The position numbers were made by a program, and so were the translations under genes. Below, piece after piece: positions 1 through 18,574 of a stretch of 64,000 nt of DNA (positions are counted from its first letter, which is position 1; every line of letters starts with the position of its first letter). The notes below the pieces were generated by a model, which was not told the origin of the DNA, ran no database searches, and saw only the letters and a list, made by a program, of their open reading frames with translations. Source of the stretch: Desulfomicrobium sp. ZS1 (lineage in GTDB: Bacteria > Desulfobacterota > Desulfovibrionia > Desulfovibrionales > Desulfomicrobiaceae). Location of the stretch: contig NZ_CP100351.1 of the NCBI RefSeq assembly GCF_024204645.1, positions 1 to 64,000 of the forward strand. The letters are read 5' to 3'.

Positions 1-1350
1 ATGATTGACGCATGGCATCGCATTTCGCTTTCTCTTGAGAAGAACCTCACTCCGGGCCATTATCAGCTCTGGATCAAGCCCTTGCAGGGGTGTCTTGACA
101 ACGACACGCTGGTGCTCTGCGCGCCCAATTCCTTTGTGTGCACGTGGGTCCGCGAGCGCATGCTCGGCAAGATCAAGGATGCGGCCGCCGAGACCCTGGG
201 TTTTATGCCGACCATAGAACTCTGCTCCGCCCAGGCCGAAGCGCCCGTGGCCGCGCCCGTCCAGCCCGCACCCGCCCGAAAGATCATGACCCGCCAGATG
301 GGCCTGCCCATGGCTCACGCCCTGCCTACGCAGACCGTGCAGAATTGGCGGCATCAGTTCGATGATTTCATCGTCGGGCCCTGCAACAATCTCGCCTATG
401 TCGCATCCCGCAGCTTTTGCCAGGACGTGCAAGGCTCGGATCAACTTTTTCTTTGCTCCGCACCGGGCCTGGGCAAGACCCATCTGGCCCAGGCCATAGG
501 CAGCGAGATCGCCCGGCAGACCAACCGGCAGCACCTGCGGGTCTGCTATCTGAGCGGGGAGGAATTCTCCTCGCAGTTGGTCATGGCCATCAAGGCCAAG
601 GCCGTGGAGCAGTTCAAGGCCCGCTTCAGGTCCAACGTGGATTTGCTTCTGCTCGAAGACGTGCATTTTTTTCAGGGCAAGGAGAAAATGCAGGATGAGC
701 TTTTGAATACTTTGAAATCGTTGCAGAATCAGGGGCGCCGGGTGGTCATGACCAGCACGTTTCTGCCCCGGGAGCTGTCCGACATCGACTCTAACCTGCT
801 GTCCCGCTTCGCGCAGGGGTTCATGGCCGTCATCGACAAGCCCGACTTTCAGACCCGCATGGGCATCATCCAGGCCAAAGTCCAGGCGTCGCAGGTCAGC
901 ATGCCGGGCAGCGTGGCCGAGCTTCTGGCCGGCAGGATCAAGACCGATGTCCGCCAGCTTGAGAGCTGCCTGAAAAACATCATCCTCAAGGCCAAGCTCC
1001 TGAACATGGACATCACCATGGATCTGGCCTGGGAGATACTGCAGAACTACAACCTCGACAGCGCCTCCATAGATCTCGACAAGATCATCAGTTTCGTCTG
1101 CCAGGCCTACGGGTTCGGTTTTGACGACCTGCGCTCCAAGAGCCGCAAGCGCGACCGGGTCATCGCCCGCAATACGGCCTTCTACCTGGCACGCAAGCAC
1201 ACGGAGCTGTCGCTCATGGATATCGGGCGTCGCTTCAACCGCAAGCACTCCACGGTCATCAAGGGCATCGCCTCCGTGGAACAGGAAGTCACCCGCAAGA
1301 CGTCTCTGGGCAACCAGCTGGCCCGCACGATCAATCAGCTTCAAGCCTGA
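1..1350 (+). CDS. dnaA: Chromosomal replication initiator DnaA
   Basis: 449-residue DnaA. It binds DnaA boxes at oriC and opens the duplex for helicase loading. Visible are an N-terminal domain I (about 1-70), a short linker, an AAA+ core with Walker A GLGKTHL (about 155-161), a Walker B-like LLLLEDVHFF (about 215-224), an LLSRF arginine-finger region (about 267), and a C-terminal helix-turn-helix. The domain IV signature, about residues 388-425, reads GRRFNRKHSTV where the usual form is GraFGGRDHTTV, so it is one residue short and divergent in the box-contacting segment. The next gene is on the other strand and is not dnaN. The upstream region lies outside the window, so the ribosome site and origin cannot be judged. 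A second DnaA paralogue elsewhere in the genome is possible. Confidence 0.95.
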   Translation: MIDAWHRISLSLEKNLTPGHYQLWIKPLQGCLDNDTLVLCAPNSFVCTWVRERMLGKIKDAAAETLGFMPTIELCSAQAEAPVAAPVQPAPARKIMTRQMGLPMAHALPTQTVQNWRHQFDDFIVGPCNNLAYVASRSFCQDVQGSDQLFLCSAPGLGKTHLAQAIGSEIARQTNRQHLRVCYLSGEEFSSQLVMAIKAKAVEQFKARFRSNVDLLLLEDVHFFQGKEKMQDELLNTLKSLQNQGRRVVMTSTFLPRELSDIDSNLLSRFAQGFMAVIDKPDFQTRMGIIQAKVQASQVSMPGSVAELLAGRIKTDVRQLESCLKNIILKAKLLNMDITMDLAWEILQNYNLDSASIDLDKIISFVCQAYGFGFDDLRSKSRKRDRVIARNTAFYLARKHTELSLMDIGRRFNRKHSTVIKGIASVEQEVTRKTSLGNQLARTINQLQA

Positions 1351-1435: not shown

Positions 1436-3508
1436 CTATTCGCCCGCTTTTTCCAGCAGTTTGTTCCCGCGAGACGTTTCAAGGGCGGCGGCAAGGGCCT
1501 CGACGATGCGCAGGTCGTAACTGTGCGTTGACGAGCGCAGGTTGTCCAGGGCCTGCTGCGGGCTCATGGCCGGCCTGTAGGCCCGGGGGCGGATCATGGC
1601 GCAAAAGCTGTTGGCCACGCTTAGGACCCTGGCCTGGAGGCTGATCTCCTCGTCGTGCAGGCCATTGGGGTAGCCGCTGCCGTCAAGGCGTTCGTTCATC
1701 TGATAGATGGCCTCGTAAACGGGCAATTCAAAGTCGATCTGGCGCAGGATGCCCGCCGCATGGTCGACATGTTTTTGTACCAGTTCTTTTTCTTCATCGG
1801 AGAGCTGGTCGACCTTGGTCAGAATCGCCTTGTCGATGAACATCTTGCCGATCTGGGAAAGGTTGGAGGCGATCTCCACCGTGGATTTGTCTTCGGGGGA
1901 GAGGTGCAGGTTTTCGGCCAGCAGAGAGGACACATCGCGCATCAAGAGGGAATGTCCGGCCAGATAGGGGTCCGTGAACTCGATGGCTTTGACCAGGGCC
2001 TCCACGGTCTGTGAGATGGCCTGACGTTTGCGATCCTCGGCCTGCACCATGGCGGTGATGTCCCGGAATACGGAGACGATGCCTTGCGGGGTGTCGTGAT
2101 CGTCCTTCAAGGTGACCTTGGTGATCTGGAAATGGTGTTCCCTTGATTTCAGGAAGATGCGCTCGGTCACGGTCACAGGCGTTCCGGTCTGCAGGGTCTG
2201 GGCATCGGACTGCTCCAGGCGCTTGCCCGTGTCGAAGCCGAACAGGGCGACATCGTCCAGGCCGAGCACCTCGTCTTCCGGTCGGCCCACGCCTTCTGCC
2301 AAGGCCGGGTTGGCGTAGGTGTAGTTGCCGCTCAAGTTTTTAACGGCGATGAAATCCGGGATCGAGTCGTTGATGGAATCCAGGAAGTTGCGCTGCTGCT
2401 CCAGTTCCTGGGCCAGAATCTGAAACCTGCCGGCGATGCGCTTGTGGCTCTGGCCGATGGTGCGCCACCAGACAGCGCCAAAGAGCAGGCTTGTGACCAT
2501 GGCGATGAGGCCGGCGATGAGTAGGGAGATCCGGGTGTACTCCTGCAATCCTTGGGTTGCGCTGCGGGTATCCACCTCCTGGATGACCCACAGATCAAGA
2601 TCGGGGACTTTGACGCCCAGCGAAAAGACGGGCGTCTGCGCGCCCAGGCTGTTGCGTTTTTCAAAGCCGAGCCGCTGTCCCGAATCCAGTTCCGGCGGCG
2701 AGGCCAGGTGTGCGATCCCGCCCGGGTTCCACGGCACGATCTCCTGAAAGCCGGCCTCGGTCATCTGCATGATCCGGGTCCGCTCTCCGTTGGTCGAAAG
2801 CGGGGTGTTGGAGAGCAGCGAGGTGATGGTCGTGCCCGCGCTCTTGGTCAGCATGGCCACGGCCACAGCCTTCTTTTCCCCGTTCTCTTCGGCCGTGGAG
2901 AAGATCGGTACGCACATGTCGATGACCAGGCCGTTGCCTGTCTGTCGCAAGGGCGAGAAGTGGGGCAGGGGGTAGGCGAAGGTCTTTTTGATCAGCGCGG
3001 TCTGGCTGGGGCTGAGAGGGGTGACGCGCGAGTCGGACCCGATGTAGGATTGCCCGCTGCGATGCACGATGCGGCCGGACAGGAAGCCCGCGAAGACCGT
3101 GAAGTCCGCGAAGGTCTGATGCATGAGGGGAAACTGGTCGGTCAGTTGGGCCATCTGATCGTAGGATTCCCCTTCGGGGATGATGCCTGTGATGAGAAAG
3201 CTCGGATCCGCGTCGATGAGGTCCATGTCCGTGGCATAAAGCCGAAACAGGTCCGAGGAGATGAGCTTGTCCGTCTGTTCGACCAGGCCCGAAAGCCACG
3301 ACGAGAGGACTTCGGTGCGGCTGGTGGCCAGCAATTCGAGCCTGCCCCGGATCTGCTCGTGCAGCTCTCCCTGTTTGGCCCGGACGCTCCAGCCCACCCA
3401 TGTCAAAAGAGCCACGATGATCAGGGAGATGATGGCGACCCCCATGATCAGTTCTGACCTGTTCTTGCCCATGGCGGGCAGAGCCGCTTTGCTGCTTGAT
3501 GCTGTCAT
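1436..3508 (-). CDS. Membrane sensor with dCache-like and PAS domains and a degenerate HD-GYP domain
   Basis: 690 residues. Order: TM1 (about 20-42), a large periplasmic dCache-like region (about 45-320), TM2 (about 327-350), PAS (about 375-490), HD-GYP (about 505-670). Active HD-GYP proteins hydrolyse c-di-GMP with metals held by an HD dyad and further histidines. Here HDIGK is replaced by SQIGK (551-555), HHE before the GYP motif by MNE (604-606), and the later VAD by VAN, while GSGYP (610-614) remains. The domain is therefore probably not a phosphodiesterase but could still bind c-di-GMP. It lies 19 bp downstream of the LapG-like protease in the secretion operon, where a LapD-type receptor would be expected. 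Inference: it may sense c-di-GMP and control the protease. A GAGAAGGGA ribosome site precedes the ATG. Confidence 0.85.
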   Translation of the reverse strand: MTASSSKAALPAMGKNRSELIMGVAIISLIIVALLTWVGWSVRAKQGELHEQIRGRLELLATSRTEVLSSWLSGLVEQTDKLISSDLFRLYATDMDLIDADPSFLITGIIPEGESYDQMAQLTDQFPLMHQTFADFTVFAGFLSGRIVHRSGQSYIGSDSRVTPLSPSQTALIKKTFAYPLPHFSPLRQTGNGLVIDMCVPIFSTAEENGEKKAVAVAMLTKSAGTTITSLLSNTPLSTNGERTRIMQMTEAGFQEIVPWNPGGIAHLASPPELDSGQRLGFEKRNSLGAQTPVFSLGVKVPDLDLWVIQEVDTRSATQGLQEYTRISLLIAGLIAMVTSLLFGAVWWRTIGQSHKRIAGRFQILAQELEQQRNFLDSINDSIPDFIAVKNLSGNYTYANPALAEGVGRPEDEVLGLDDVALFGFDTGKRLEQSDAQTLQTGTPVTVTERIFLKSREHHFQITKVTLKDDHDTPQGIVSVFRDITAMVQAEDRKRQAISQTVEALVKAIEFTDPYLAGHSLLMRDVSSLLAENLHLSPEDKSTVEIASNLSQIGKMFIDKAILTKVDQLSDEEKELVQKHVDHAAGILRQIDFELPVYEAIYQMNERLDGSGYPNGLHDEEISLQARVLSVANSFCAMIRPRAYRPAMSPQQALDNLRSSTHSYDLRIVEALAAALETSRGNKLLEKAGE

Positions 3509-3527: not shown

Positions 3528-4622
3528 TTAGTTCGCTACAGGGATGTGCGACCATCTGTGCTCCTCGTTCAAAGAGTATTGCGGAACGTAGTGTCTATAT
3601 TTGTCATGCGTGAAAATCGCGTCGGAGATGTTGTTCAGGATGTAGGCATCTCCATGCGTAAATACCGCCAGAACAGCGTGCGCGATGCCTCTGATGCGGT
3701 CCTTCAGCACGACGATGCGCAGTTCGTCCTGCGAAAAGCCGAGCTCCCGCAGGGCAAAGTACTTGATGATGGCGTAATCCTCGCAATCGCCGGAAATTTT
3801 TAAAAATTCCTGGGGCGTGGCCCACCAGTCCGAAACTCCGTAGGCGTCCTGGTCCAGGCGATAGGGCCATTTGTTGAAAAAGGAGTTGATCATCTTGAGC
3901 TGTTCCATGCGCTCCTTGCCCCTGGCCTGGTTCATGATGCGCTGCCAACTGGTCGCGCCGGGCGGACAGGTCTTGGCCGAAGCGCAGCTGCTTAGCGTCT
4001 GGATTTGCCCCTTGACCTTGGACAGAATCCGTTTCCATTTGGGCAAGGCGCTGAAATTGCCCCGAAAGGCCGCGCTCTGAAAAAGTCGCAGCGGCTGACC
4101 GCCGGTGTCTGCGCCGGCGCTCCGGGCTTGGTCCAACGGTGCTGCAGGCTGGGTCTGCGTGCCCTGGCGCCATACCGGCAGGGCTGCCCTTTGCGTCGAC
4201 GAATCCTGATTTTGCTGCGCCTGAGTTCCCTCCGGCGCGTTTGAATCCAGGTCTTGCGTCAAAGCCGCTTCTGTTTTCGTGACAGCTTCCGTGATCGGGG
4301 CCTGCTCCGCAGGGACGTTTGCCTGTGTGTCCGGGGGCTGGCTTTGTTCCGTCTGAACACGAGGATCCGCAACCTGGTCCGGTTTGTGGTCCGGTTGAAC
4401 ATCCGTTCGCATTTCTTGCGGCGAGGCCGATCTCGTGGCGTTTTGTCCCTGCTCGGGCCGGGCAGAGATCACCGTTCCGGCGTTCGTGTCTGCCCGTGCG
4501 TGCTTCGTCTGGGCAGGCTGGTCGTGCACCGGCGCGCCTCCGGTCCCCATTGCTGCGAAATCGCTTGGAAAGCACAGTGCCGCCGCAAGCAGCAAAAGAG
4601 ACGTGGAGACGGCCCATCTCAA
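3528..4622 (-). CDS. lapG: LapG-like periplasmic cysteine protease (BTLCP family)
   Basis: 364 residues. LapG proteases cut the N-terminus of RTX adhesins and release them from the cell surface. An N-terminal signal peptide (about 1-24) is followed by a Pro/Gln/Ala-rich linker (about 25-170) longer than in classical LapG, then the transglutaminase-like domain. Cys280 lies in GDCEDYAI and His315 in AHAVLAVF. The third triad position, usually Asp in a VLDNL-type motif, reads ILNN, giving Asn330. The start is TTG, four bases after the stop of the fusion-protein gene; the next ATG would remove the signal peptide. Its place between the T1SS genes and the degenerate HD-GYP gene supports adhesin processing. 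Activity with Asn in the triad is uncertain. Confidence 0.85.
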   Translation of the reverse strand: MRWAVSTSLLLLAAALCFPSDFAAMGTGGAPVHDQPAQTKHARADTNAGTVISARPEQGQNATRSASPQEMRTDVQPDHKPDQVADPRVQTEQSQPPDTQANVPAEQAPITEAVTKTEAALTQDLDSNAPEGTQAQQNQDSSTQRAALPVWRQGTQTQPAAPLDQARSAGADTGGQPLRLFQSAAFRGNFSALPKWKRILSKVKGQIQTLSSCASAKTCPPGATSWQRIMNQARGKERMEQLKMINSFFNKWPYRLDQDAYGVSDWWATPQEFLKISGDCEDYAIIKYFALRELGFSQDELRIVVLKDRIRGIAHAVLAVFTHGDAYILNNISDAIFTHDKYRHYVPQYSLNEEHRWSHIPVAN

Positions 4623-4626
4623 TCGG

Positions 4627-5955
4627 TCAACGCTCCCTCAAGGCGTTCTCCTTGGCCTTGAGAATGGGTTTCAAGAGATAGTCGAGCACGCTTTTCTTGC
4701 CGGTCAGGATGTCCACGCTGGCGGTCATGCCCGGAATGATCGGGAGCTTTTCGCCGCGATAGACAATGTTTGAGGCCTGGGTGCGCAGCTTGACCTTGTA
4801 GAAGCTTTCGCCCTTCTGGTCTTCAATGGTGTCGCCGCTGATCTGTTCGACGGAACCTTCAAGCCCTCCGTAGATGGAAAAATCATAGGCCGTGATCTTG
4901 ATCATGGCCTTTTGGCCCGGATGCAGAAAGGCGATGTCGGCGGGTTTGATGTTGGCCTCGATGAGCAGGGTGTCGTCCAGGGGGATGATCTCAAGGATGG
5001 GTTCTCCCGGTTTGACCACGCCGCCCACGGTATTCAGGATGACCTGCTTGACGGTGCCGCGCACAGGGCTGCGCACGTCCGTGCGGGTGACGCGGTCCTG
5101 TCCGGCGGACAAGGCGTGCAGCTTGGAATTGAGTTCCACCTGGTGCTGGTTCATCTCCTGCAGGGCCGTGGCCTTGAACTCGGCCATGCGCTGAGCCTGG
5201 CGTTCCTTGATTTCCTGCGCCGCCTGCTGCGTGCGCGGGATGGCGACGTTGAGGCTCTGCAGATCGCCGCGCAGGGAGCTGACCGTGCGCTGCAGGGAGA
5301 TGTATTCGACCCGGGGATACACGTTCTTCTCCATCAGCGGCTTGGCGATATCCATCTGTTCCTGAGCCAGCTTCAGGTCCTGGGCCGCCTGATTGCGGCG
5401 GATGGCCATTTCCTGGGCTTCCTGCACGCGCTGCGTGTATTGGCTGCGCAGAATGTTCATCTCCTGGGTCAGTTGGTTCATGCGTGCCTGGTATATGGCC
5501 AACTGGTCACTCACCGCTTTGGGGCTCTTGGTCTGCAGTTCTTCGGAAAATACGGGCTCCGTGCCCGAGGATTCGGCCTTGAGGCGCGCGATGGCGGCCT
5601 GATGCTCCAGCGCCTGGCTGGCCGTGTCCTTCAGGGTGCTCTGGGCCATTTCGTTGCTGATGCGGACCAGGATGTCGCCCTTCTCCACGAGCTGGTTTTC
5701 CCGCACCAGGGTTTCCACCAAAATGCCACCTTCGAGGTTCTGGATGATCTGCACCCGCTGGGACGGGATGACCTGACCCATGCCGCGCGTGACCTCGTCG
5801 AGGATGGCGAAGTGGGTCCAGACCAGGAGCGAGGCAAGGAGCAGGCAGATGGTCATGGACAGCGCGTAGGCCCAGCGGTGGCCGCGTCGATACATGGCCG
5901 CGTCGACCACGCTCATGTATTCAAGGTCTGAGTCGGAGTATACTTTATCACGCAT
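4627..5955 (-). CDS. lapC: Type I secretion membrane fusion protein, HlyD/LapC family
   Basis: 442 residues from the chosen start. It bridges the inner-membrane ATPase and the TolC-like channel. It has a short cytoplasmic N-terminus, one membrane segment (about 20-45), a long alpha-helical hairpin rich in Gln/Glu/Ala and a C-terminal beta-barrel region including a PGMTASVDI motif typical of HlyD proteins. The start at 5955 (MRDKVYSD) is preferred over 6042 because GGAG lies 6 bases upstream and the ATG overlaps the ABC transporter stop by 8 bases (ATGCGTGA), a translational coupling arrangement; starting at 6042 would overlap the previous gene by 95 bases. Confidence 0.92.
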   Translation of the reverse strand: MRDKVYSDSDLEYMSVVDAAMYRRGHRWAYALSMTICLLLASLLVWTHFAILDEVTRGMGQVIPSQRVQIIQNLEGGILVETLVRENQLVEKGDILVRISNEMAQSTLKDTASQALEHQAAIARLKAESSGTEPVFSEELQTKSPKAVSDQLAIYQARMNQLTQEMNILRSQYTQRVQEAQEMAIRRNQAAQDLKLAQEQMDIAKPLMEKNVYPRVEYISLQRTVSSLRGDLQSLNVAIPRTQQAAQEIKERQAQRMAEFKATALQEMNQHQVELNSKLHALSAGQDRVTRTDVRSPVRGTVKQVILNTVGGVVKPGEPILEIIPLDDTLLIEANIKPADIAFLHPGQKAMIKITAYDFSIYGGLEGSVEQISGDTIEDQKGESFYKVKLRTQASNIVYRGEKLPIIPGMTASVDILTGKKSVLDYLLKPILKAKENALRER

Positions 5956-8161
5956 TTTTGGCTCCGTTGCCGCGCTTTTGCAGCTCGGCCAGAACTTCAT
6001 TGCGCGGTCCGTCGGCGATGATTGATCCGCCTTCAAGGGCAATGACCCGTGTGGCCAGGGACAACAGGCTCGGTCTGTGGGTGATGAGGATGAGGGTCTT
6101 GCCTTTCAGGGCCGAGGAGAGGCGGAGTTTGAGCACGGCCTCCACGCCCACGTCCATGGAACTGCTCGGTTCGTCCAAGATGACGATGTCGGGGTCGAGC
6201 AGCAGGGTGCGGGCGATGGTGATGGCCTGGCGCTGGCCGCCGGACAGGGACAGCCCCCGTTCTCCGACCTGCAGGTTGAAGCCGGCGGGGTTGTTTTTGA
6301 TGAAATCGGTGACTCCGGCAATGGTCGCGGCGCGCAGCAGCGCCTGGTCGCTGACGTGAGGCGCGCCGAGAGTGATGTTTTCGCGCACCGTGCCGTGGAA
6401 CAGAAAATTGTCCTGGGCCATGTAGCCGATCTTGGCCCGCAATTCGGCCGGATCGATCTGGCGGATATCGAGGCCCCCGATCTTCACCGCTCCTTTCTGC
6501 GGCTCGTAGAGGCCGTTGATCAGCTTGCCAAGCGTAGTCTTGCCCGAACCCATCTTGCCGATGATCGCCACGCGCTCGCCCTGGGCGATGTGCAGGCCGA
6601 TGTGGGACAGGGCGTTGGTCAGGGCGTTGGGGTATTTGAAGCTCACGTCCTCGAAGGTGATGGTGGCGCGAAGGTCCTGATGTTCCGGATGCTGGACGTC
6701 ATCGGGGCGCTCGCTTGGGATCTGCATGAGCAGGTCCAGGTTTTTGAGCGCCATGCGGCTCTGTTGCAGGCGGGTCAGCATGGCCGCCACCGCGCCCAGC
6801 GGAGCCATGGCCCGGCCGACGAGGATGGAGCAGGCGATGAGCCCGCCCATGGTCATCTCGCCTTCGGAGATTCGGTACACGCCCCAGATGATGACGCCGC
6901 AATAGACGATCTGGGATGCGAACTGGGTGAAACTTAGGGAGAAGGTACTGAGCGACTTGGAGCGGATGGCCGATTTGGCGCCCATGCCGACGATGTTCTC
7001 CCAGCGGCCGAGCATGGAGCCTTCGGCCCGGCTGGTCTTGATGGTCTCAAGGCCGCTCACGGTTTCCACCAGCAAGGCGTTTTTCTGGGTCGATTCCTTG
7101 TAACCGCCTTCGATGGCGCGCTTCAGGGGGCCCTGCATGATGATGCCGACCAGGATGACTATGGGCGCGACCACGGCCGGAACAATGGCTACGGGGCCGC
7201 CGATGTAGAAGATGATGGTAATGAACAGGATCAGGAAGGGCAGGTCCACCAGCGCGAGCAGGGTGGTGGAGCTGAAGAACTCCCGCAGGGAATCGAACTC
7301 GCGCATGTTGTTGACCAGCGCCCCCGTGGATTCGGGCTTGTGGTCGAGCCGGATGGACAGGATGTGGCTCATCAGCTTGCTGGCGACCAGGATGTCGGAA
7401 TTGCGTCCGGCCACGTCCACGAAATAGCCGCGCAGGTTCCTGAGCGCAAAATCGAAAAAGAAGGCGATGCCGACACCCACGGCCAGCACCCATAAGGTCT
7501 CCAGCGCGTTGTTGGGCACGACCCGGTCGTACACGTTCATGGTGAAAAGAGGCGAGGCGATGGCCAGCAGGTTGATGAAAACCGTGGCCAGGATGACGTG
7601 CCGGTAAATGGGCAGAAAATGAAAGATGGTGCCCCAGAACCACTGCTTGGTGTTGAAGATCTTCAGCCCTTCGGTCCTGCCGTCCAGACTGGCCTTGGGG
7701 CGGGCGAAGACGGTGTGTCCGGTGTAGGTTTCTTTCAGCTTTTCGACCGGGGTGTCAAAGGGCGCGTCCGGGTTCTCGGGCATGATGATGCGGGCCGTGC
7801 CGGAAGCTACGCTGACCAGTACGCAGGCCGAGCCGTCCTGCATGAGCAGGACGCAAGGCAGGTTCAGGGGGGAGATTTTATCAATGGCCGGCTTGTGCGT
7901 GATCTGGGCGTCGATGCCCTCGCGCCGCGCCGCGCGGATCACCGCGTACGGGGTCATGCCTTCCTGCGTGCGCGGCAGGCCCGCTTCCAGCGCCGTGGTG
8001 CTGACGGGACGGCCCTGCATGCGGGATATGACGGACAAACACCCAACCAGCGGCGGGGTGAAATAGACCTGCGATGGGTTGATCTGGGCGGTGATCGTCG
8101 GGCGCGGCTTGGCGGCTGACTGGGGAGCGGCGATGGGAATGGCGACCTTGGGATCATTCAT
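5948..8161 (-). CDS. lapB: Type I secretion ABC transporter/ATPase, LapB-like
   Basis: 737 residues. It powers export of the adjacent RTX adhesin. Order: an N-terminal C39-peptidase-like domain (about 30-150), the six-helix membrane domain (about 175-450), and the ATPase domain (about 490-735) with Walker A GKMGSGKTTL (about 530-540), signature LSGGQ (about 638), Walker B IVILDEP and an ITH switch histidine (about 694). The C39-like domain has Cys in PLVGCLSV but the usual His region reads CVLLMQDGSACVLV, so it is probably a non-proteolytic docking domain, as is usual for RTX exporters. First gene of the operon with the fusion protein, LapG and HD-GYP genes; divergent from the adhesin. Confidence 0.93.
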   Translation of the reverse strand: MNDPKVAIPIAAPQSAAKPRPTITAQINPSQVYFTPPLVGCLSVISRMQGRPVSTTALEAGLPRTQEGMTPYAVIRAARREGIDAQITHKPAIDKISPLNLPCVLLMQDGSACVLVSVASGTARIIMPENPDAPFDTPVEKLKETYTGHTVFARPKASLDGRTEGLKIFNTKQWFWGTIFHFLPIYRHVILATVFINLLAIASPLFTMNVYDRVVPNNALETLWVLAVGVGIAFFFDFALRNLRGYFVDVAGRNSDILVASKLMSHILSIRLDHKPESTGALVNNMREFDSLREFFSSTTLLALVDLPFLILFITIIFYIGGPVAIVPAVVAPIVILVGIIMQGPLKRAIEGGYKESTQKNALLVETVSGLETIKTSRAEGSMLGRWENIVGMGAKSAIRSKSLSTFSLSFTQFASQIVYCGVIIWGVYRISEGEMTMGGLIACSILVGRAMAPLGAVAAMLTRLQQSRMALKNLDLLMQIPSERPDDVQHPEHQDLRATITFEDVSFKYPNALTNALSHIGLHIAQGERVAIIGKMGSGKTTLGKLINGLYEPQKGAVKIGGLDIRQIDPAELRAKIGYMAQDNFLFHGTVRENITLGAPHVSDQALLRAATIAGVTDFIKNNPAGFNLQVGERGLSLSGGQRQAITIARTLLLDPDIVILDEPSSSMDVGVEAVLKLRLSSALKGKTLILITHRPSLLSLATRVIALEGGSIIADGPRNEVLAELQKRGNGAKNA

Positions 8162-8759: not shown

Positions 8760-8773
8760 AGGTGGAGGACACC

Positions 8774-11700
8774 ATGGCTGAATCACAGAATTCCAAACAG
8801 AACGTACAGGCCCCCCAGGCTGGCCAGACCGTGATCGTCAACGCGATCCCGGGCCAGGATATCGTGCTCGAGGCTGCTTTTGATCAGGCCGAAGTAAAGA
8901 TGGATGGCGGCAATGTGGTTTTCGAGTTCGCGAACGGCGGCCAGGTAGTCCTCGACTTCACGGATCTGGGCGAAGCCCAGGCCCCCAATGTGGTCATGCC
9001 TGACGGCACGGTCCTGAACATGCAGGAATTTCTCGCTTCCTTTGGCGAAGGAGATATTGAGCCTGCGGCCGGGCCGGAAGGTGGTGCGGATGGTAGTGGC
9101 GGCGTCGGTGAATACCGGGATGACGCAGGCAATCTGATCGAAGGCGTGGACAAACTGGGAGTTTTGAACCCCCGGGAGTTCACCTCGATCAGCGTGGAGG
9201 CGTTGGACGCTGATCCGTTGCTGGAGGACGCGTTACTGACTCCCGAAACCGAAAATCCACTTCCGACTGCCGGAAATGCTGGTGGAGCAGTGGATGAAGA
9301 CGGGTTGCGTATTCGCGAGTTGCGTATCAGCGATTTGCGCATGACCCCGTTTAATGGAAATAATGACGAAGCGGACGGCGATCACCCTGCCGAGGATGCT
9401 TTTTTTGTTGGAACTTTGGAATATGACTTCGGCGGGGACGGACCTGCCGCCACATCTCCTTTCGAGTGGAGCATGGACGGTCTGGTTGACAAGGGGATCA
9501 CTTCGCGTGGTTATGATTTGCAATACGAAGTGGTTGACGGTGGCCTGACCTTGAACGCCTTCTATGTGCTTGGAGAAGGCGATCCTGAAGGCCCCAGCGA
9601 TGGCGATCAGGGTGGAGATTTTTCCCTGTTCAGGGTTGTTCAAGAATATGTGCGTGTAGATGTTTTCAGTGTGCAGGTGACCGATCTTGCCTCTGGTGCC
9701 TACAGGTTTGAACTCTACCAACCCCTGGATCATCCCGAATCGACCGAAGACGACATAGTCTATAATTTCGGCTTTGTTGTGGCTGATGGATCAGGAGATA
9801 CGGCTGTTGGCGGTTTGAACATACTTGTCGATGATGATTCTCCTTTGGTCTCGGTTGATGCCGACGTACTTCCCCGCATGATTTTGGATGAATCTCTCTC
9901 CGAAGAGAACACCGTTGCGGGTGATGGAGATGGCGTCCACAGTTTGACTGAAGATTTTTCGAGCTATTTTAGCTTTAGTTATGGTGCGGACGGCCCTCAG
10001 TCTGAAGGTAGTGTGAATTATTCTCTGTCGCTGAATGGCAAAAGCGTTGCGTCTGGCATTTTTGCCGTGGGCGAGAACGGCCAGCATGGTGCTCCGATCA
10101 TGCTCAGCCTAGACGGGAATGGAGCCATCATCGGAACGGTCGGAGAGTCTGATCCATATTTTCGGATCAGTGTAGATGCGGAGACAGGAACGGTCACCTT
10201 TGAGCAGTTCCAGAATGTTTGGCACGATAACCCGGAAGAAGATGATGAAGCAGTGTATTTGACGCTGCCGGAAGGAACGATTCTTTTGGAAGCTGTTGCG
10301 GCTGATGGTGATTTGGATACTGCTTCAGCTACGATTGATCTGAGTTCGGGGGTGTTTGGGATTCAGGATGACGGTCCGAGTATCGACATCGAAAAGACTG
10401 AGGGGACTCTTGCAACATTGGTGGCGAGCGATGCGACGCTGGGCACGAATCCGACGGCGAATTTTGCCGGCAACTTCACGACCATCGCGGCGAACACCGG
10501 CTATGGCGCGGACGGGGAGGGCAGTGTCAGTTCGCTATACTCCTTGGGCGTTAAGTCCGAGGGAGCCGACAGCGGTCTGGTCGACACGGCGACGGGCGCT
10601 GCCGTGGTGCTGACGTTCAACGCCATTACGGGGGCTGTTGAAGGTCACGCAGATACCGTCTCCGGCGCTTTGGTCTTCACGGTCAGTGTGGACAGCAGCA
10701 CGGGTGAGGTGACGCTGGATCAGGTTCGCGCCGTTCAGCACGACGATGCCAGCGATCCGGTCGAGTCCGGGACGTCTGCGGCGACGCTTACCTCCTCTGA
10801 TTTGATCACGCTTACTCGTACCGACACCATCACTGATGGCGACGGTGACACTGACTCCGATTTCGCGACCCTAAACATTGGCAGTGCAATTTCGTTTGAG
10901 GATGACGGTCCGAGTATCGACATCGAAAAGACTGAGGGGACTCTTGCAACATTGGTGGCGAGCGATGCGACGCTGAGCACGAATCCGACGGCGAATTTTG
11001 CCGGCAACTTCACGACCATCGCGGCGAACACCGGCTATGGCGCGGACGGGGAGGGCAGTGTCAGTTCGCTATACTCCTTGGGCGTTAAGTCCGAGGGAGC
11101 CGACAGCGGTCTGGTCGACACGGCGACGGGCGCTGCCGTGGTGCTGACGTTCAACGCCATTACGGGGGCTGTTGAAGGTCACGCAGATACCGTCTCCGGC
11201 GCTTTGGTCTTCACGGTCAGTGTGGACAGCAGCACGGGTGAGGTGACGCTGGATCAGGTTCGCGCCGTTCAGCACGACGATGCCAGCGATCCGGTCGAGT
11301 CCGGGACGTCTGCGGCGACGCTTACCTCCTCTGATTTGATCACGCTTACTCGTACCGACACCATCACTGATGGCGACGGTGACACTGACTCCGATTTCGC
11401 GACCCTAAACATTGGCAGTGCAATTTCGTTTGAGGATGACGGTCCGAGTATCGACATCGAAAAGACTGAGGGGACTCTTGCAACATTGGTGGCGAGCGAT
11501 GCGACGCTGAGCACGAATCCGACGGCGAATTTTGCCGGCAACTTCACGACCATCGCGGCGAACACCGGCTATGGCGCGGACGGGGAGGGCAGTGTCAGTT
11601 CGCTATACTCCTTGGGCGTTAAGTCCGAGGGAGCCGACAGCGGTCTGGTCGACACGGCGACGGGCGCTGCCGTGGTGCTGACGTTCAACGCCATTACGGG

Positions 11701-14700
11701 GGCTGTTGAAGGTCACGCAGATACCGTCTCCGGCGCTTTGGTCTTCACGGTCAGTGTGGACAGCAGCACGGGTGAGGTGACGCTGGATCAGGTTCGCGCC
11801 GTTCAGCACGACGATGCCAGCGATCCGGTCGAGTCCGGGACGTCTGCGGCGACGCTTACCTCCTCTGATTTGATCACGCTTACTCGTACCGACACCATCA
11901 CTGATGGCGACGGTGACACTGACTCCGATTTCGCGACCCTAAACATTGGCAGTGCAATTTCGTTTGAGGATGACGGTCCGAGTATCGACATCGAAAAGAC
12001 TGAGGGGACTCTTGCAACATTGGTGGCGAGCGATGCGACGCTGAGCACGAATCCGACGGCGAATTTTGCCGGCAACTTCACGACCATCGCGGCGAACACC
12101 GGCTATGGCGCGGACGGGGAGGGCAGTGTCAGTTCGCTATACTCCTTGGGCGTTAAGTCCGAGGGAGCCGACAGCGGTCTGGTCGACACGGCGACGGGCG
12201 CTGCCGTGGTGCTGACGTTCAACGCCATTACGGGGGCTGTTGAAGGTCACGCAGATACCGTCTCCGGCGCTTTGGTCTTCACGGTCAGTGTGGACAGCAG
12301 CACGGGTGAGGTGACGCTGGATCAGGTTCGCGCCGTTCAGCACGACGATGCCAGCGATCCGGTCGAGTCCGGGACGTCTGCGGCGACGCTTACCTCCTCT
12401 GATTTGATCACGCTTACTCGTACCGACACCATCACTGATGGCGACGGTGACACTGACTCCGATTTCGCGACCCTAAACATTGGCAGTGCAATTTCGTTTG
12501 AGGATGACGGTCCGAGTATCGACATCGAAAAGACTGAGGGGACTCTTGCAACATTGGTGGCGAGCGATGCGACGCTGAGCACGAATCCGACGGCGAATTT
12601 TGCCGGCAACTTCACGACCATCGCGGCGAACACCGGCTATGGCGCGGACGGGGAGGGCAGTGTCAGTTCGCTATACTCCTTGGGCGTTAAGTCCGAGGGA
12701 GCCGACAGCGGTCTGGTCGACACGGCGACGGGCGCTGCCGTGGTGCTGACGTTCAACGCCATTACGGGGGCTGTTGAAGGTCACGCAGATACCGTCTCCG
12801 GCGCTTTGGTCTTCACGGTCAGTGTGGACAGCAGCACGGGTGAGGTGACGCTGGATCAGGTTCGCGCCGTTCAGCACGACGATGCCAGCGATCCGGTCGA
12901 GTCCGGGACGTCTGCGGCGACGCTTACCTCCTCTGATTTGATCACGCTTACTCGTACCGACACCATCACTGATGGCGACGGTGACACTGACTCCGATTTC
13001 GCGACCCTAAACATTGGCAGTGCAATTTCGTTTGAGGATGACGGTCCGAGTATCGACATCGAAAAGACTGAGGGGACTCTTGCAACATTGGTGGCGAGCG
13101 ATGCGACGCTGAGCACGAATCCGACGGCGAATTTTGCCGGCAACTTCACGACCATCGCGGCGAACACCGGCTATGGCGCGGACGGGGAGGGCAGTGTCAG
13201 TTCGCTATACTCCTTGGGCGTTAAGTCCGAGGGAGCCGACAGCGGTCTGGTCGACACGGCGACGGGCGCTGCCGTGGTGCTGACGTTCAACGCCATTACG
13301 GGGGCTGTTGAAGGTCACGCAGATACCGTCTCCGGCGCTTTGGTCTTCACGGTCAGTGTGGACAGCAGCACGGGTGAGGTGACGCTGGATCAGGTTCGCG
13401 CCGTTCAGCACGACGATGCCAGCGATCCGGTCGAGTCCGGGACGTCTGCGGCGACGCTTACCTCCTCTGATTTGATCACGCTTACTCGTACCGACACCAT
13501 CACTGATGGCGACGGTGACACTGACTCCGATTTCGCGACCCTAAACATTGGCAGTGCAATTTCGTTTGAGGATGACGGTCCTGAAGCAGCCCTGAAGCCT
13601 GATATGCAGGTTCGTACCCTGCTCGTCGACGAGTCGGCTGTTCCGAATCCTGCAGAAAATCCGGTTGATGACGACGGCATTGACGACGGCATCCGGAGCG
13701 CCTCTGCGGACTTCAGCGGCTACTTTGCGGACCTGGACTTTGGGACGGACGGTGCCGGCAGTGTTGGTTATGCGGTAATTTTGACTGGCACGGAGGTTGG
13801 TTCTGGCCTTTACGCGGTGGATCCCGAAGCCGATGGCGGCAAGGGTGAGCAGATTTTTCTGCGCCAGGCGGGCGATGTTGTCGAAGGCTATTTAGGCGAT
13901 CAGGTGTACTTCACGATCAAAGTTGATTCGAATCCTGATTCTCCGACCTTCAATCATGTGGTCTTCACCCAGGTGGTTTCAGAGGGTGTGAGCATCTGGC
14001 ACGCAGAGGGTGGTACCCAGCATGACGACCTTTCTTCTCTGGTCGTGGCCCCTGGTGACGGCGAAGTTCCGAACGCTCTGAATCTTGTGCAGACGGTGAA
14101 GGATGCGGACGGTGATGTCGATTCGGCGGAACTGAATCTGGGCTCTGGCGTGTTCTTGATCGAGGATGACGGTCCGACAGCCGGGGATGTCTCGCGTGAG
14201 TTTGTTGAGCAGCTGCCTGTCTACATCTCCGGTTTTCAGGCCGGTTTTGTAAATGGGGATGGCAAGTCAACATTGAATTACGTGGAAAATGACAGCGATA
14301 GTTATGCGGATGGTCTCTTCTGGGGCGTGACGAGCTCGAACACCGGTTCGGGATATCTTTTTGAGGACAATGACGAGTTGCGTGATTTTTCAGACAACGT
14401 GGCCGGTCAAACGTTTACCTTGGGTACTTTTACGCATGTCAATAAGACGATTGCGCCCAATACAAGTTTGAATTCTGTCGATTTGATCGTAAAATTCATG
14501 CTGAACGGCCGGGAAGTATCGCACACGGTGACTTTGATACATGATGAAACAACGAATGGCGGCAATGCTGATCAAAATAGGGATATTATCACGCTGTTAA
14601 ATACAACACTTACGAAGCAATTCGTAATAGATGGCCAGACGTTTGAACTAAAGATCGATGGCTTCAAGCAGGTTGGCGAAGAAACGGATGCTTTTAGTAC

Positions 14701-16504
14701 AGCCATTAAAACCTACGAGGGTCAGAACAATCCATTTGAGCTCGTGGCGTCGATTTCCCCCGTTAACTCGCCTGTCATCAGTGGGACCGTAAATCCTGGC
14801 TATGGAACGGACGGTCCCGGCGAGGTCATCTGGGATGAGATCGAGTATAATGATGAAGCAGGGGCTTATGTTTCCACGAGCGACTATGGGACATTTACGG
14901 GCTATTCTGATGGCAGTTACAATTTTGTACAGAGTTCGTACGATGTGAATGAGCCTGTGAAGCTGGATTTTGCGTATACGGTGACTGATGGCGACAACGA
15001 CACGGACAGCGCGGTTCTGAGCCTGACGGTCACTGATGCCAGTGAAGTAGTGGCGCATGACAACTACGGTCAGGCCATGATCGAGGAGTTCGATGGCGAA
15101 GAGCAGGTAGTCATTCCGGCTCTGGCTGATTTTAAGAACTGGGCTCAAAATCAAATTATCCGGACAGATGTTGAATCCTGGGGAAGAACCAGCGCGAATG
15201 ACACGGTTCGAAATTCTGATGGAAGTCTTCGCATGACGGATGGGAATGATTCCTCCAACAATTACTCAGTTGTGGTGAGCAAGGGCCTCGTGATTCGTGA
15301 CACTGCGGATGTAATAAAGTTCGAAGTCGAGGTGTCGAACGTGCATTCCCAGGCAACTACTACTGACGAGTTTTCCTGGAAGATCTATAAGCTCGTTGGT
15401 ACCGATTGGGTTTCCGTCTCTGGTGTCGGAGGAATTGTTCCAGAAACGGACGGATTTGTTGTTAAGTCAATTACTGGTTTAGACGCAGGGAGGTATCGTC
15501 TGGAATTCATAGTCAACGACAAGACAAAGAATGACAGTTCAGACGGAATTTTTTATGCAACAATCAAGAATATTACGGTTTCGACAACAGTTGATGTAGA
15601 TGATATTCTTGTATATCCTGTTATTGGTAATGTGATCACTGACCCCAATGACTATATTGCCAGCACGGATCCTTGGGGTGCTCAGGATCGTCTTGGTTCT
15701 GAAGGCGCGTTTCTATCGTTCGTCAATGGGATTGCAGTTGCTACGACCGGTATCACAACCATTAATGGCGATTATGGCACTCTTGAAATATCTGCTGACG
15801 GCTCGTACACGTACACCCCGAATGAGATTCTGGAAAATCTCGGAATGACTGACGTGTTTGTCTACACGTTGACCCAGCCCGATGGCGATTTGGATACGGC
15901 GCAACTGGTCATTACGATAGCCGAGACGCCGTACACGCCTCCTGTTCCGATTGTCGTTCCTGTGGACGGCGTATACGGCGGGTCAGACGGCAACGACGTG
16001 ATTCTTGGTTTTTCCGGAGACGATGTCCTCATGGGTGGGGATGGGAACGATCGCTTGGAAGGTGGTGACGGTGATGACACCTTGATGGGTGGCGCGGGTG
16101 ATGACATCCTGTTAGGAGGTGACGGCGAAGACATTCTGATCGGTGGTGCCGGTGATGACATCATGCTGGGGGGGGGGGGATCTGATACTTTCAAATTCGG
16201 CCTGGATGCTCTTGACGGCGGCTATGATCAGATCCTTGACTTCCAACTAGGCGAGAATGGTGATCAGCTCGACCTGAGTGGGGTTTTCGGCGAATCTGGT
16301 CTCGATCTGAAAGCCTTGCAAGACGCCGGTTATGTGAAGGTTGAAGTGGATTCGTCTGATTCTTCTAAACTGAATGTGCATGTTGATGCAGACGGAAGTG
16401 CTGGAAATGCTGGAGGAACTGTCGATATCAGCGTGTCGGTGACCGGAGATTTGGGTGACAACGCGGTAGAGACGATGCTCTCCCAGATCAATACTGAATT
16501 ATAA
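8774..16504 (+). CDS. Giant RTX adhesin, LapA-like, with T1SS-143-type repeats
   Basis: 2576 residues; a surface adhesin exported by the neighbouring type I system. The start is ATG 8774 because GGAGG lies 5 bases upstream; the upstream GTG would begin before the Shine-Dalgarno sequence. The N-terminal about 95 residues resemble a LapA retention module and end in PAAG (97-100), a LapG-type di-alanine cleavage site. Residues 532-1599 are six 178-residue repeats that appear identical at DNA level apart from one base. Divergent repeats of the same general class and cadherin-like segments follow. Residues about 2402-2474 hold eight RTX nonapeptides (GGxGxDxLx) for calcium binding, then a C-terminal secretion signal ending in INTEL. 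The protein is acidic and contains very few Cys residues, as usual for this class. A G12 tract interrupts the RTX block. Confidence 0.95.
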   Translation: MAESQNSKQNVQAPQAGQTVIVNAIPGQDIVLEAAFDQAEVKMDGGNVVFEFANGGQVVLDFTDLGEAQAPNVVMPDGTVLNMQEFLASFGEGDIEPAAGPEGGADGSGGVGEYRDDAGNLIEGVDKLGVLNPREFTSISVEALDADPLLEDALLTPETENPLPTAGNAGGAVDEDGLRIRELRISDLRMTPFNGNNDEADGDHPAEDAFFVGTLEYDFGGDGPAATSPFEWSMDGLVDKGITSRGYDLQYEVVDGGLTLNAFYVLGEGDPEGPSDGDQGGDFSLFRVVQEYVRVDVFSVQVTDLASGAYRFELYQPLDHPESTEDDIVYNFGFVVADGSGDTAVGGLNILVDDDSPLVSVDADVLPRMILDESLSEENTVAGDGDGVHSLTEDFSSYFSFSYGADGPQSEGSVNYSLSLNGKSVASGIFAVGENGQHGAPIMLSLDGNGAIIGTVGESDPYFRISVDAETGTVTFEQFQNVWHDNPEEDDEAVYLTLPEGTILLEAVAADGDLDTASATIDLSSGVFGIQDDGPSIDIEKTEGTLATLVASDATLGTNPTANFAGNFTTIAANTGYGADGEGSVSSLYSLGVKSEGADSGLVDTATGAAVVLTFNAITGAVEGHADTVSGALVFTVSVDSSTGEVTLDQVRAVQHDDASDPVESGTSAATLTSSDLITLTRTDTITDGDGDTDSDFATLNIGSAISFEDDGPSIDIEKTEGTLATLVASDATLSTNPTANFAGNFTTIAANTGYGADGEGSVSSLYSLGVKSEGADSGLVDTATGAAVVLTFNAITGAVEGHADTVSGALVFTVSVDSSTGEVTLDQVRAVQHDDASDPVESGTSAATLTSSDLITLTRTDTITDGDGDTDSDFATLNIGSAISFEDDGPSIDIEKTEGTLATLVASDATLSTNPTANFAGNFTTIAANTGYGADGEGSVSSLYSLGVKSEGADSGLVDTATGAAVVLTFNAITGAVEGHADTVSGALVFTVSVDSSTGEVTLDQVRAVQHDDASDPVESGTSAATLTSSDLITLTRTDTITDGDGDTDSDFATLNIGSAISFEDDGPSIDIEKTEGTLATLVASDATLSTNPTANFAGNFTTIAANTGYGADGEGSVSSLYSLGVKSEGADSGLVDTATGAAVVLTFNAITGAVEGHADTVSGALVFTVSVDSSTGEVTLDQVRAVQHDDASDPVESGTSAATLTSSDLITLTRTDTITDGDGDTDSDFATLNIGSAISFEDDGPSIDIEKTEGTLATLVASDATLSTNPTANFAGNFTTIAANTGYGADGEGSVSSLYSLGVKSEGADSGLVDTATGAAVVLTFNAITGAVEGHADTVSGALVFTVSVDSSTGEVTLDQVRAVQHDDASDPVESGTSAATLTSSDLITLTRTDTITDGDGDTDSDFATLNIGSAISFEDDGPSIDIEKTEGTLATLVASDATLSTNPTANFAGNFTTIAANTGYGADGEGSVSSLYSLGVKSEGADSGLVDTATGAAVVLTFNAITGAVEGHADTVSGALVFTVSVDSSTGEVTLDQVRAVQHDDASDPVESGTSAATLTSSDLITLTRTDTITDGDGDTDSDFATLNIGSAISFEDDGPEAALKPDMQVRTLLVDESAVPNPAENPVDDDGIDDGIRSASADFSGYFADLDFGTDGAGSVGYAVILTGTEVGSGLYAVDPEADGGKGEQIFLRQAGDVVEGYLGDQVYFTIKVDSNPDSPTFNHVVFTQVVSEGVSIWHAEGGTQHDDLSSLVVAPGDGEVPNALNLVQTVKDADGDVDSAELNLGSGVFLIEDDGPTAGDVSREFVEQLPVYISGFQAGFVNGDGKSTLNYVENDSDSYADGLFWGVTSSNTGSGYLFEDNDELRDFSDNVAGQTFTLGTFTHVNKTIAPNTSLNSVDLIVKFMLNGREVSHTVTLIHDETTNGGNADQNRDIITLLNTTLTKQFVIDGQTFELKIDGFKQVGEETDAFSTAIKTYEGQNNPFELVASISPVNSPVISGTVNPGYGTDGPGEVIWDEIEYNDEAGAYVSTSDYGTFTGYSDGSYNFVQSSYDVNEPVKLDFAYTVTDGDNDTDSAVLSLTVTDASEVVAHDNYGQAMIEEFDGEEQVVIPALADFKNWAQNQIIRTDVESWGRTSANDTVRNSDGSLRMTDGNDSSNNYSVVVSKGLVIRDTADVIKFEVEVSNVHSQATTTDEFSWKIYKLVGTDWVSVSGVGGIVPETDGFVVKSITGLDAGRYRLEFIVNDKTKNDSSDGIFYATIKNITVSTTVDVDDILVYPVIGNVITDPNDYIASTDPWGAQDRLGSEGAFLSFVNGIAVATTGITTINGDYGTLEISADGSYTYTPNEILENLGMTDVFVYTLTQPDGDLDTAQLVITIAETPYTPPVPIVVPVDGVYGGSDGNDVILGFSGDDVLMGGDGNDRLEGGDGDDTLMGGAGDDILLGGDGEDILIGGAGDDIMLGGGGSDTFKFGLDALDGGYDQILDFQLGENGDQLDLSGVFGESGLDLKALQDAGYVKVEVDSSDSSKLNVHVDADGSAGNAGGTVDISVSVTGDLGDNAVETMLSQINTEL
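9062..9073 (+). other. Predicted LapG cleavage site PAAG in the adhesin
   Basis: Codons for Pro-Ala-Ala-Gly, residues 97-100. LapG cuts LapA between two alanines in a TAAG-type site at about residue 108; position and sequence agree closely. Inference from the family. Confidence 0.7.
10367..13570 (+). repeat. Six 534-bp in-frame tandem repeats in the adhesin gene
   Basis: Units begin at 10367, 10901, 11435, 11969, 12503 and 13037, each opening with gatgacggtccgag. By eye they differ only at 10442 (G in unit 1, giving Gly; A in the others, giving Ser). Each encodes 178 residues beginning DDGPSIDIEK. Such identity implies recent amplification or gene conversion, and an assembly could easily have the copy number wrong. 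Confidence 0.95.
15977..16197 (+). repeat. RTX nonapeptide repeat block
   Basis: Eight tandem GGxGxDxLx units near the adhesin C-terminus. In RTX proteins these bind calcium outside the cell and drive folding after export. Confidence 0.9.
16168..16179 (+). repeat. G12 homopolymer inside the adhesin reading frame
   Basis: Twelve consecutive G residues encode the glycines of the last RTX repeat (LGGGGSD). A change of one or two bases would shift the frame about 110 codons before the stop and remove the C-terminal secretion signal. Confidence 0.9.
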
Positions 16505-16583: not shown

Positions 16584-17102
16584 ATGACAATGCCCAAAGG
16601 TACTCTTCACGAACATATTCATGCTCAAACCGGCCATTTCCGCCTTCCTCCCGACGCGCCCGATTTTCAACGCGTCGTGGAATTCGCGGGTATTGCCGTG
16701 CCTGAGGACGGGTTGGTGCTGGCTCCGCCTTTTGGCGGTGAGTTGACTGTCTGGCCTGACGGGCAGTATTCTTTCGTCTGCCCCGTGTCCGGGGACGGTG
16801 GGCAGTCCATGGTTGCTACGCATTACAGCTATATTGTCGAAGCCATGGACGGCAGCACGTCTTTTGGTACCTTCGCCCTTGGCGAGCAGGCCCCGGAAGA
16901 GACCATGCCCGATTTTCAGTCCTGGTCCCTGGATGATATCCTGGCTCTTGAGGATGTTGTCGGCCTGTCCGTGGATGCGCATGGCCCTGTGGCGGAGTTC
17001 ATGGGGGTTGATGTTGGCGTGGATTTGGATTTGTCCGGGGATGCCGGCGGATTCTCGGTTGATGTTCTTGAGCAGATGATCAAGACTTCGTGTGAATCAT
17101 GA
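16584..17102 (+). CDS. Small adhesin-locus protein of unknown function
   Basis: 172 residues, not recognised as a named family. It has no clear signal peptide or membrane segment and is acidic in its C-terminal half. The segment GGELTVWPDGQYSFVCP resembles the G-x-DGxYxF strand pattern of cadherin-like repeats in T1SS adhesins, and SWSLDDILALED resembles short amphipathic motifs seen in adhesin tails. It sits between the adhesin and the TolC-like gene, same strand, and is followed by a strong terminator. It might be an adhesin fragment that became a separate gene or an accessory factor. No strong ribosome site is visible before 16584; ATG 16590 is an alternative start. Confidence 0.6.
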   Translation: MTMPKGTLHEHIHAQTGHFRLPPDAPDFQRVVEFAGIAVPEDGLVLAPPFGGELTVWPDGQYSFVCPVSGDGGQSMVATHYSYIVEAMDGSTSFGTFALGEQAPEETMPDFQSWSLDDILALEDVVGLSVDAHGPVAEFMGVDVGVDLDLSGDAGGFSVDVLEQMIKTSCES

Positions 17103-17163: not shown

Positions 17164-17242
17164 TTCATTTACAAGCTCCACTGCGATTATTAGAAGAAAA
17201 TAAATTAAGTTCGTGTATTACTCTAGCAAGGAGAGGCTGTTT

Positions 17243-18574
17243 ATGAATGCAAAAAAATTGAGTATTACTCTTGTCCTGTCGGTGATGCTGTCGGCCGGTG
17301 TGGCTCTGGCCGAAGATAGCATCACCGTCCAGAAGAGTGTTATCGACACTCTGCGCTATGCACCTCGCCTGGAAATGATCAAACACAACCGCGAAGCAGT
17401 GGGCCATGACTTGGACAAGTCCAAGGGCCGCTGGTATCCCAAGCTCGACATTCGTGGCGGATATGGGACGGATTCATACGATCAGGAAAACAATCCTGGT
17501 GATAGTGATTGGGATTCCCGTTCAGAGGTTTCCGCGATTCTGAGCCAGCGTCTCTATGACGGTGGCGAGGGTTTCAGTCAGATTCGTCTGGATGAAAGAC
17601 GTGCGGCCTCCCTGGACTATCGCGTCTTCGACAACGCCGAGTCCCTGGCCCTGGATGCGGTCATTGCCAATATGGAAGTTTACCGTCAGCGTGAACTGCT
17701 CTTCCTGGCCGAAGAAAACGCCAAGGCCCATCGCGATATCCTGGGCTCTCTGCAGGAACGCGAAGAGGCCGGCGCGGGCAGCGTGGCCGACGTGAAGCAG
17801 ACCCAGGCCCGCTTGGCCATGGCCCAGGCCTCCATCGAAAAGACCCGTACGGCTTTACAGGCCGCCTTGAATGAATACCAGCGTCTGACCGGAGTCCTGC
17901 CCGGCAAGATCGCCATGGCGCCCTATCCTCAGAACCTCATTCCCGCATCCCTGGATGAAATGACTGCCCAGGCCATCGGCAACAATCCCAAGATCAATGC
18001 CGCAGGCGAAGACGTCAACGCTGAAACCGAGCGCGTCAACATCGCCAAGGCCAATTACCATCCCTATGTCTACCTTGAACTGTCTTCCTCTTATTCGGAC
18101 GGCGTTGAAAATCAGGATTATTGGGAGCGCACCGATGCGGCCATGGTCCGCTTCAACTGGAATCTGTTCAACGGCGGTTCCGATTTGGCTGCCCACAAGG
18201 CCACCAAGGCCCGCAAGCGCCAGGCCCAGGCCGACAAGTACGACCTGACCCTAGCGGTCGAGAACGAGACCAAGACCACTTGGGCGCAGTACAAGTCCTC
18301 GCTGAGCGAAGTGAAGGAATACACCCAGGCCGTGCAGTACAACCGCGACACCAAGGGGATCTACCTGGAGCAGTTCGGCGTGGCACAGCGCAGTTTGCTT
18401 GATGTGCTCGATTCTGAAAACGAAGTGTTCCAGTCTTCCAGTCAGTTGGTCACTTCCAGCGTGAATGAGCAGATCGCGGCCTATAAGCTTCTGGCCCTGT
18501 CCGGCAATCTGATCACCGCTCTTGGCGTTGACCCGGCCCTGTACAAGGACCCCGCCGCTCAGATTGAAGAATGA
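17243..18574 (+). CDS. TolC-like outer membrane channel of the type I system
   Basis: 443 residues. It forms the outer-membrane exit duct for the adhesin, the role of LapE in Pseudomonas. A signal peptide (about 1-24, cut near ALA-ED) precedes two repeated helical hairpin halves rich in Ala, Gln and Glu, the pattern of the outer membrane efflux family. The start is ATG 17243, six bases after AAGGAGAGG; a longer frame from 17213 would place MYYSSKERLF before the signal peptide and is disfavoured. It has its own upstream terminator and presumably its own promoter, and is followed by a strong terminator. Confidence 0.92.
   Translation: MNAKKLSITLVLSVMLSAGVALAEDSITVQKSVIDTLRYAPRLEMIKHNREAVGHDLDKSKGRWYPKLDIRGGYGTDSYDQENNPGDSDWDSRSEVSAILSQRLYDGGEGFSQIRLDERRAASLDYRVFDNAESLALDAVIANMEVYRQRELLFLAEENAKAHRDILGSLQEREEAGAGSVADVKQTQARLAMAQASIEKTRTALQAALNEYQRLTGVLPGKIAMAPYPQNLIPASLDEMTAQAIGNNPKINAAGEDVNAETERVNIAKANYHPYVYLELSSSYSDGVENQDYWERTDAAMVRFNWNLFNGGSDLAAHKATKARKRQAQADKYDLTLAVENETKTTWAQYKSSLSEVKEYTQAVQYNRDTKGIYLEQFGVAQRSLLDVLDSENEVFQSSSQLVTSSVNEQIAAYKLLALSGNLITALGVDPALYKDPAAQIEE

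Follow-up and report, generated by a model that had tools for sequence, protein, structure and literature searches.

Identification of a degenerate HD-GYP protein in an adhesin locus

Does a membrane protein with a degenerate HD-GYP domain, encoded beside a LapG-like protease, serve as a c-di-GMP receptor that controls adhesin release, and does it do so in the manner of LapD? The question arises at the start of the single-contig 3.87-Mb genome of Desulfomicrobium sp. ZS1, whose first 64,000 nucleotides were analyzed here as a whole (the window). The protein is very probably the Desulfomicrobium ortholog of DvhD and, judging by homology, a c-di-GMP receptor that restrains the protease DvhG and hence adhesin release. 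The genes concerned are as follows:

1436..3508, minus strand: predicted DvhD ortholog, 690 aa, read from ATG to TAG; Pfam HD_5 and PAS_4, phmmer matches to DvhD structures
3528..4622, minus strand: DvhG ortholog (LapG-like cysteine protease, Peptidase_C93), 364 aa; profile matches
4627..6042, minus strand: HlyD-family type I secretion adaptor, LapC-like; TIGR01843, 380 bits, above cut-off
5948..8161, minus strand: LssB-type type I secretion ABC transporter, LapB-like; TIGR03375, 922 bits, above cut-off
8762..16504, plus strand: large RTX adhesin, 2,580 aa; DUF5801 repeats and C-terminal RTX repeats
16584..17102: 172-aa ORF between the adhesin and tolC; no Pfam or NCBIfam match
17213..18574, plus strand: TolC-family outer-membrane component, LapE-like; TIGR01844, 255 bits, above cut-off

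By sequence, the window carries a complete predicted Dvh/Bfs set, comprising DvhD, DvhG, HlyD, the ABC transporter, the adhesin, and TolC. The original prediction had placed the protein in one operon with a LapG-like protease. Read against the transcriptional direction of the minus strand, the DvhG gene lies 19 bases from that of DvhD, the HlyD gene follows after 4 bases, and the end of the ABC transporter gene overlaps the HlyD gene. The adhesin and TolC-family genes are divergent from this cluster. A promoter scan found no sigma-70-like site. By eye, a DnaA-like ORF occupies window positions 1–1350 at the contig start; in the closest relative found (genome G039), whose DvhD is 97% identical to the window protein, the DvhD gene lies within the first 4 kb of contig C1, so that the adhesin switch is beside the contig start there as in ZS1.

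The substitutions read in the original prediction, namely SQIGK for HDIGK, MNE for HHE, and VAN for VAD, with GSGYP kept, were all confirmed in the ORF at residues 551–555, 604–606, 631–633, and 610–614, respectively. Pfam placed HD_5 at residues 504–666 (E 1.1e−38, 133 bits) and PAS_4 at residues 381–486 (E 1.1e−15), and dCache_1 matched residues 49–241 below the cutoff (E 1.8e−5). Hydropathy indicated two helices, at approximately 16–44 and 324–348, framing a dCache-like periplasmic domain of about 280 aa (approximately 45–323), in keeping with the large periplasmic domain that had been predicted.

When the protein was compared with PDB chains using phmmer, the top matches were all three crystal constructs of Desulfovibrio vulgaris DvhD: 9rc0 (PAS/HD-GYP; E 4.7e−86, query residues 369–687), 9rbz (HD-GYP; E 1.9e−54, residues 483–687), and 9rc2 (dCache; E 5e−45, residues 53–314), which jointly span almost all of the window protein. 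The homology to DVU1020, a dCache-PAS-HD-GYP membrane protein, therefore extends over all domains, and the receptor role carried over from D. vulgaris DvhD on this basis is supported. The sequence is nevertheless well diverged from that of the characterized protein, which counts against a DvhD-type reading. The comparable Lap-like system in D. vulgaris that the original prediction had mentioned is the published DvhD/DvhG system (PMC13090378, PMC11784015), and its D. vulgaris receptor is of a domain class other than LapD and controls a LapG-like protease (PMC13090378), as had been proposed for the window protein. The DvhD-type system is thus already published, and the window protein adds its Desulfomicrobium version; our literature search found no experiment on this species.

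Association of DvhD-like receptors with the protease

Relatives were collected from 199 genomes of the order and eight further contigs, and a relative was called "linked" when a DvhG match occurred within the same fetched stretch (n = 71). The alignment covered the C-terminal portions of the window protein and of D. vulgaris DvhD, together with those of these relatives and of the other HD-GYP proteins of the same genome. DvhD of Desulfomicrobium metagenome-assembled genomes was 79–80% identical to the window protein, and a DvhG match lay beside DvhD in every same-genus locus fetched.

Some more distant loci raise the alternative that the window protein is a c-di-GMP receptor acting directly on the type I secretion machinery, instead of or besides the protease. 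Relatives with the same SQ loss directly follow HlyD with no protease gene nearby (L097, L101, L107, L115, L118–L121, and L124–L127), and Peptidase_C93 was undetected in six genomes of one genus, g28 (G099, G100, G127, G152, G154, and G175), where the window DvhG used as the query gave only matches with E > 0.1. The six genomes checked of a Desulfovibrio-type genus (g12) each contain one Peptidase_C93, located either elsewhere or with a second DvhD copy. These protease-free relatives are, however, divergent, whereas the window lineage has the adjacent protease in all loci fetched, and DvhD reconstituted in Pseudomonas fluorescens regulates DvhG in a c-di-GMP-dependent manner (PMC13090378, PMC11784015). 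We therefore consider direct action on the secretion machinery unlikely for the window protein. DvhD-like receptors may work with a partner different from the protease, but the reading of the window protein as a receptor restraining DvhG is unchanged.

The g28 operons also contain a gene for a protein of about 300 aa between a Big-repeat adhesin and the ABC transporter (L124, 14379–15266; L125, 4534–5478; L127, 15598–16494). It has an N-terminal helix and weakly resembles ExbD and PRK09039 peptidoglycan-binding proteins; one guess is that it takes the place of the protease as a channel or anchor.

Conservation of the c-di-GMP contact sites

Seven canonical contacts of D. vulgaris DvhD (Y523, L577, K582, Y621, M646, R650, and Y652) are identical in the window protein, where they are Y515, L569, K574, Y613, M638, R642, and Y644. 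The sole canonical-site difference is the base contact E668, which is S660 in the window protein and is variable across the family. This conservation argues against the reading that the protein answers mainly a periplasmic ligand through dCache, or a PAS cofactor, with the HD-GYP domain as a structural dimerization unit only. Although dCache and PAS are both sensory folds, the D. vulgaris dCache structure has no ligand density (PMC13090378), and we regard this reading as very improbable.

In D. vulgaris DvhD, P567 stacks on a third, dimer-bridging c-di-GMP, and the P567T mutation weakened stabilization by c-di-GMP and increased apo dimerization (PMC13090378). The bridging residues K520, P567, and R569 correspond to T512, D559, and A561 in the window protein, and their replacement, together with that of E668, counts against the DvhD-type reading. 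A ConSurf mapping of 78 homologs reported both the canonical and the bridging sites as conserved (PMC13090378). Among the 71 linked sequences, 53 have Pro at the P567 column, 17 have Asp, and the remaining one has Ala, while Lys occurred at the K520 column in a single sequence and Arg at the R569 column in none. Our residue table agrees with the published mapping on most canonical residues and on Pro in most of the family, but disagrees on K520, R569, and on Pro in the Desulfomicrobium clade. Because K520 and R569 are so rare in linked members, the bridging site is not treated as defining the DvhD family.

The Asp-bearing sequences and the window protein formed one group of 18 rows (support, 93) in a tree that itself included the P567 column. 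Since Pro also occupies this column in 8 of 11 active HD-GYP paralogs of the genome, it seems to belong to HD-GYP domains in general and may have been lost in the Desulfomicrobium clade. In Desulfomicrobium and its near relatives, the bridging site has Asp for P567 and neither K520 nor R569, although most of the canonical site is retained; this alteration appears to be new. It is conceivable, although we lean slightly against it, that the DvhD receptors of this clade, together with the related copies in Desulfuromonadales, have lost the third, bridging site and switch through the two canonical sites only, possibly with another nucleotide preference. If so, this clade would bind two c-di-GMP molecules per dimer instead of three, and the third site would be a lineage feature outside the general DvhD mechanism. 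The family alignment suggests that the general parts are the dead metal site and the Arg and Tyr of the canonical site, and that the bridging site may be local to D. vulgaris.

Loss of the metal site

The seven ligand columns of the window protein read H519, S551, Q552, H580, M604, N605, and N633, so that five of the seven ligands are lost, with S, Q, M, N, and N standing in for the H, D, H, H, and D of active HD-GYP enzymes. The genome has 14 HD_5 matches, that is, 13 HD-GYP domains besides the window protein, and the 11 paralogs that could be aligned all have H, H, D, H, H, H, and D in these columns. In the linked relatives, the HD columns are Ser and Gln in 71/71, the HH columns Met in 69/71 and Asn in 56/71, and the last Asp column Asn in 71/71. 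The original prediction had suggested looking in Desulfovibrionales loci for the same pairing with lost ligands; SQ and the last Asn are invariant among the 71 linked relatives. Judged from this alignment, the degeneracy is not due to chance, because every alignable paralog of the same genome keeps all ligands and the losses recur in 71 linked orthologs. Metal-ligand loss is common to the DvhD-like proteins of this sample. With two same-genome paralogs as the outgroup, all DvhD-like sequences fell into one group in a quick tree with long outgroup branches, as would be expected if catalysis had been lost once, in the common ancestor of the family.

In D. vulgaris Hildenborough, DvhD (DVU1020/BfsD) likewise carries SQ in place of HD and Met-Asn in place of His-His; it showed no hydrolysis with any ion tested and bound c-di-GMP at about 99 nM (PMC13090378). 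The high HD_5 score, the GSGYP motif, and the two remaining ligand histidines (H519 and H580) could suggest a working phosphodiesterase with an altered metal site that lowers local c-di-GMP near the secretion system, but five ligands are gone, and their losses are close to fixation in the 71 orthologs. DvhD of D. vulgaris, which has the same losses, was inactive with every ion added (PMC13090378). In view of the ligand residues and of these published assays, this extremely improbable alternative was rejected.

Search for a LapD-type receptor

The original prediction had likened the protein to LapD. The receptor role in this likeness stands on the DvhD precedent, but a LapD-like periplasmic domain and mode of sequestration do not: the Pfam content of the window protein is dCache, PAS, and HD, without LapD_MoxY_N or GGDEF-EAL, and the authors of the D. 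vulgaris work argue for a control of DvhG other than the tryptophan-pocket sequestration by which LapD holds LapG (PMC13090378). A search of the genome for LapD_MoxY_N (PF16448) gave no match, and neither did the control genomes. Pfam scans of 7 of the 10 EAL matches, some of them N-terminally cut by the 1.5-kb flanks, showed no LapD_MoxY_N, and the remaining EAL proteins (L030, L032, and L033) were judged by eye from their sequences. None was recognized as a LapD in this genome, with a PF16448 search that lacked a working positive control.

L031 (1–2223; G000:C1 551716–555393), a degenerate PAS-GGDEF-EAL protein of this genome that has neither the GGDEF nor the EAL signature motif, was considered as a LapD and rejected, as it matches PAS-GGDEF-EAL; it is possibly a c-di-GMP receptor.

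The protease and its predicted target

The DvhG ortholog, the one Peptidase_C93 member found in the genome, consists of an N-terminal hydrophobic segment, a linker of about 190 aa, and a BTLCP domain. Its DCE motif and His are kept in the alignment. The presumed catalytic-Asp column of LapG-type proteases holds Asp in 70 of 78 aligned sequences and Asn in 7, the latter being the window DvhG and its closest relatives, with ILNN for VLDS locally; this Asn counts against the DvhD-type reading.

Near the N-terminus of the adhesin, [TAP]AAG matches once in the whole protein, as PAAG (residues 101–104), which fits the LapG/DvhG cleavage consensus; shuffled sequences had one or more such matches among their first 130 residues with a probability of 0.026. 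The D. vulgaris adhesin is cut at 106AA107 (PMC11784015). The DUF5801 repeats gave eight matched stretches that are near-identical. Several of them look letter-for-letter equal in translation, which points to recent repeat expansion or homogenization.

Proposed mechanism of adhesin release

At high c-di-GMP, the catalytically dead HD-GYP domain of the window DvhD would bind the nucleotide, and the stalk helices of the bound dimer would splay; a conformational change is established for D. vulgaris DvhD (PMC13090378). The signal would travel from HD-GYP via PAS and both membrane helices into the dCache domain, and dCache would restrain the neighboring DvhG. With DvhG restrained, the RTX adhesin would, after export through the neighboring type I system, remain anchored by the retention module at its N-terminus; a fall in c-di-GMP would free DvhG to cut it at PAAG 101–104, and the cell would let go. 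The DvhD-DvhG adhesin switch is hereby placed in Desulfomicrobium. Biofilms of sulfate reducers matter for corrosion and metal cycling, which makes the control of adhesin release of practical interest.

Comparison with known systems

The closest characterized system is DvhD/BfsD (DVU1020), which shares with the window protein its domain order, the SQ, Met-Asn, and Asn substitutions, the canonical residues, and a position adjoining a DvhG-type protease and a type I adhesin system. It differs in its well-diverged sequence and in having P567, K520, R569, and E668 in place of D559, T512, A561, and S660. The adhesins also differ: DvhA of D. vulgaris is described as combining a vWF-A domain with a serralysin-like domain at the C-terminus (PMC13090378), whereas the window adhesin has DUF5801 and RTX repeats. 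Active HD-GYP phosphodiesterases (PmGH, 4mcw; cGAMP phosphodiesterase, 5z7c) have the same HD-GYP domain by sequence, and the Arg and Tyr nucleotide contacts are common to the window protein and the active paralogs of its genome; however, the active enzymes keep the HD and HH metal ligands that the window protein is without. LapD of P. fluorescens is, like DvhD, an inside-out c-di-GMP receptor derived from a dead enzyme and partnered by a protease of the LapG type and a type I adhesin (PMC13090378), but it combines a LapD/MoxY periplasmic domain with HAMP-GGDEF-EAL, to which the window protein bears no sequence or domain resemblance.
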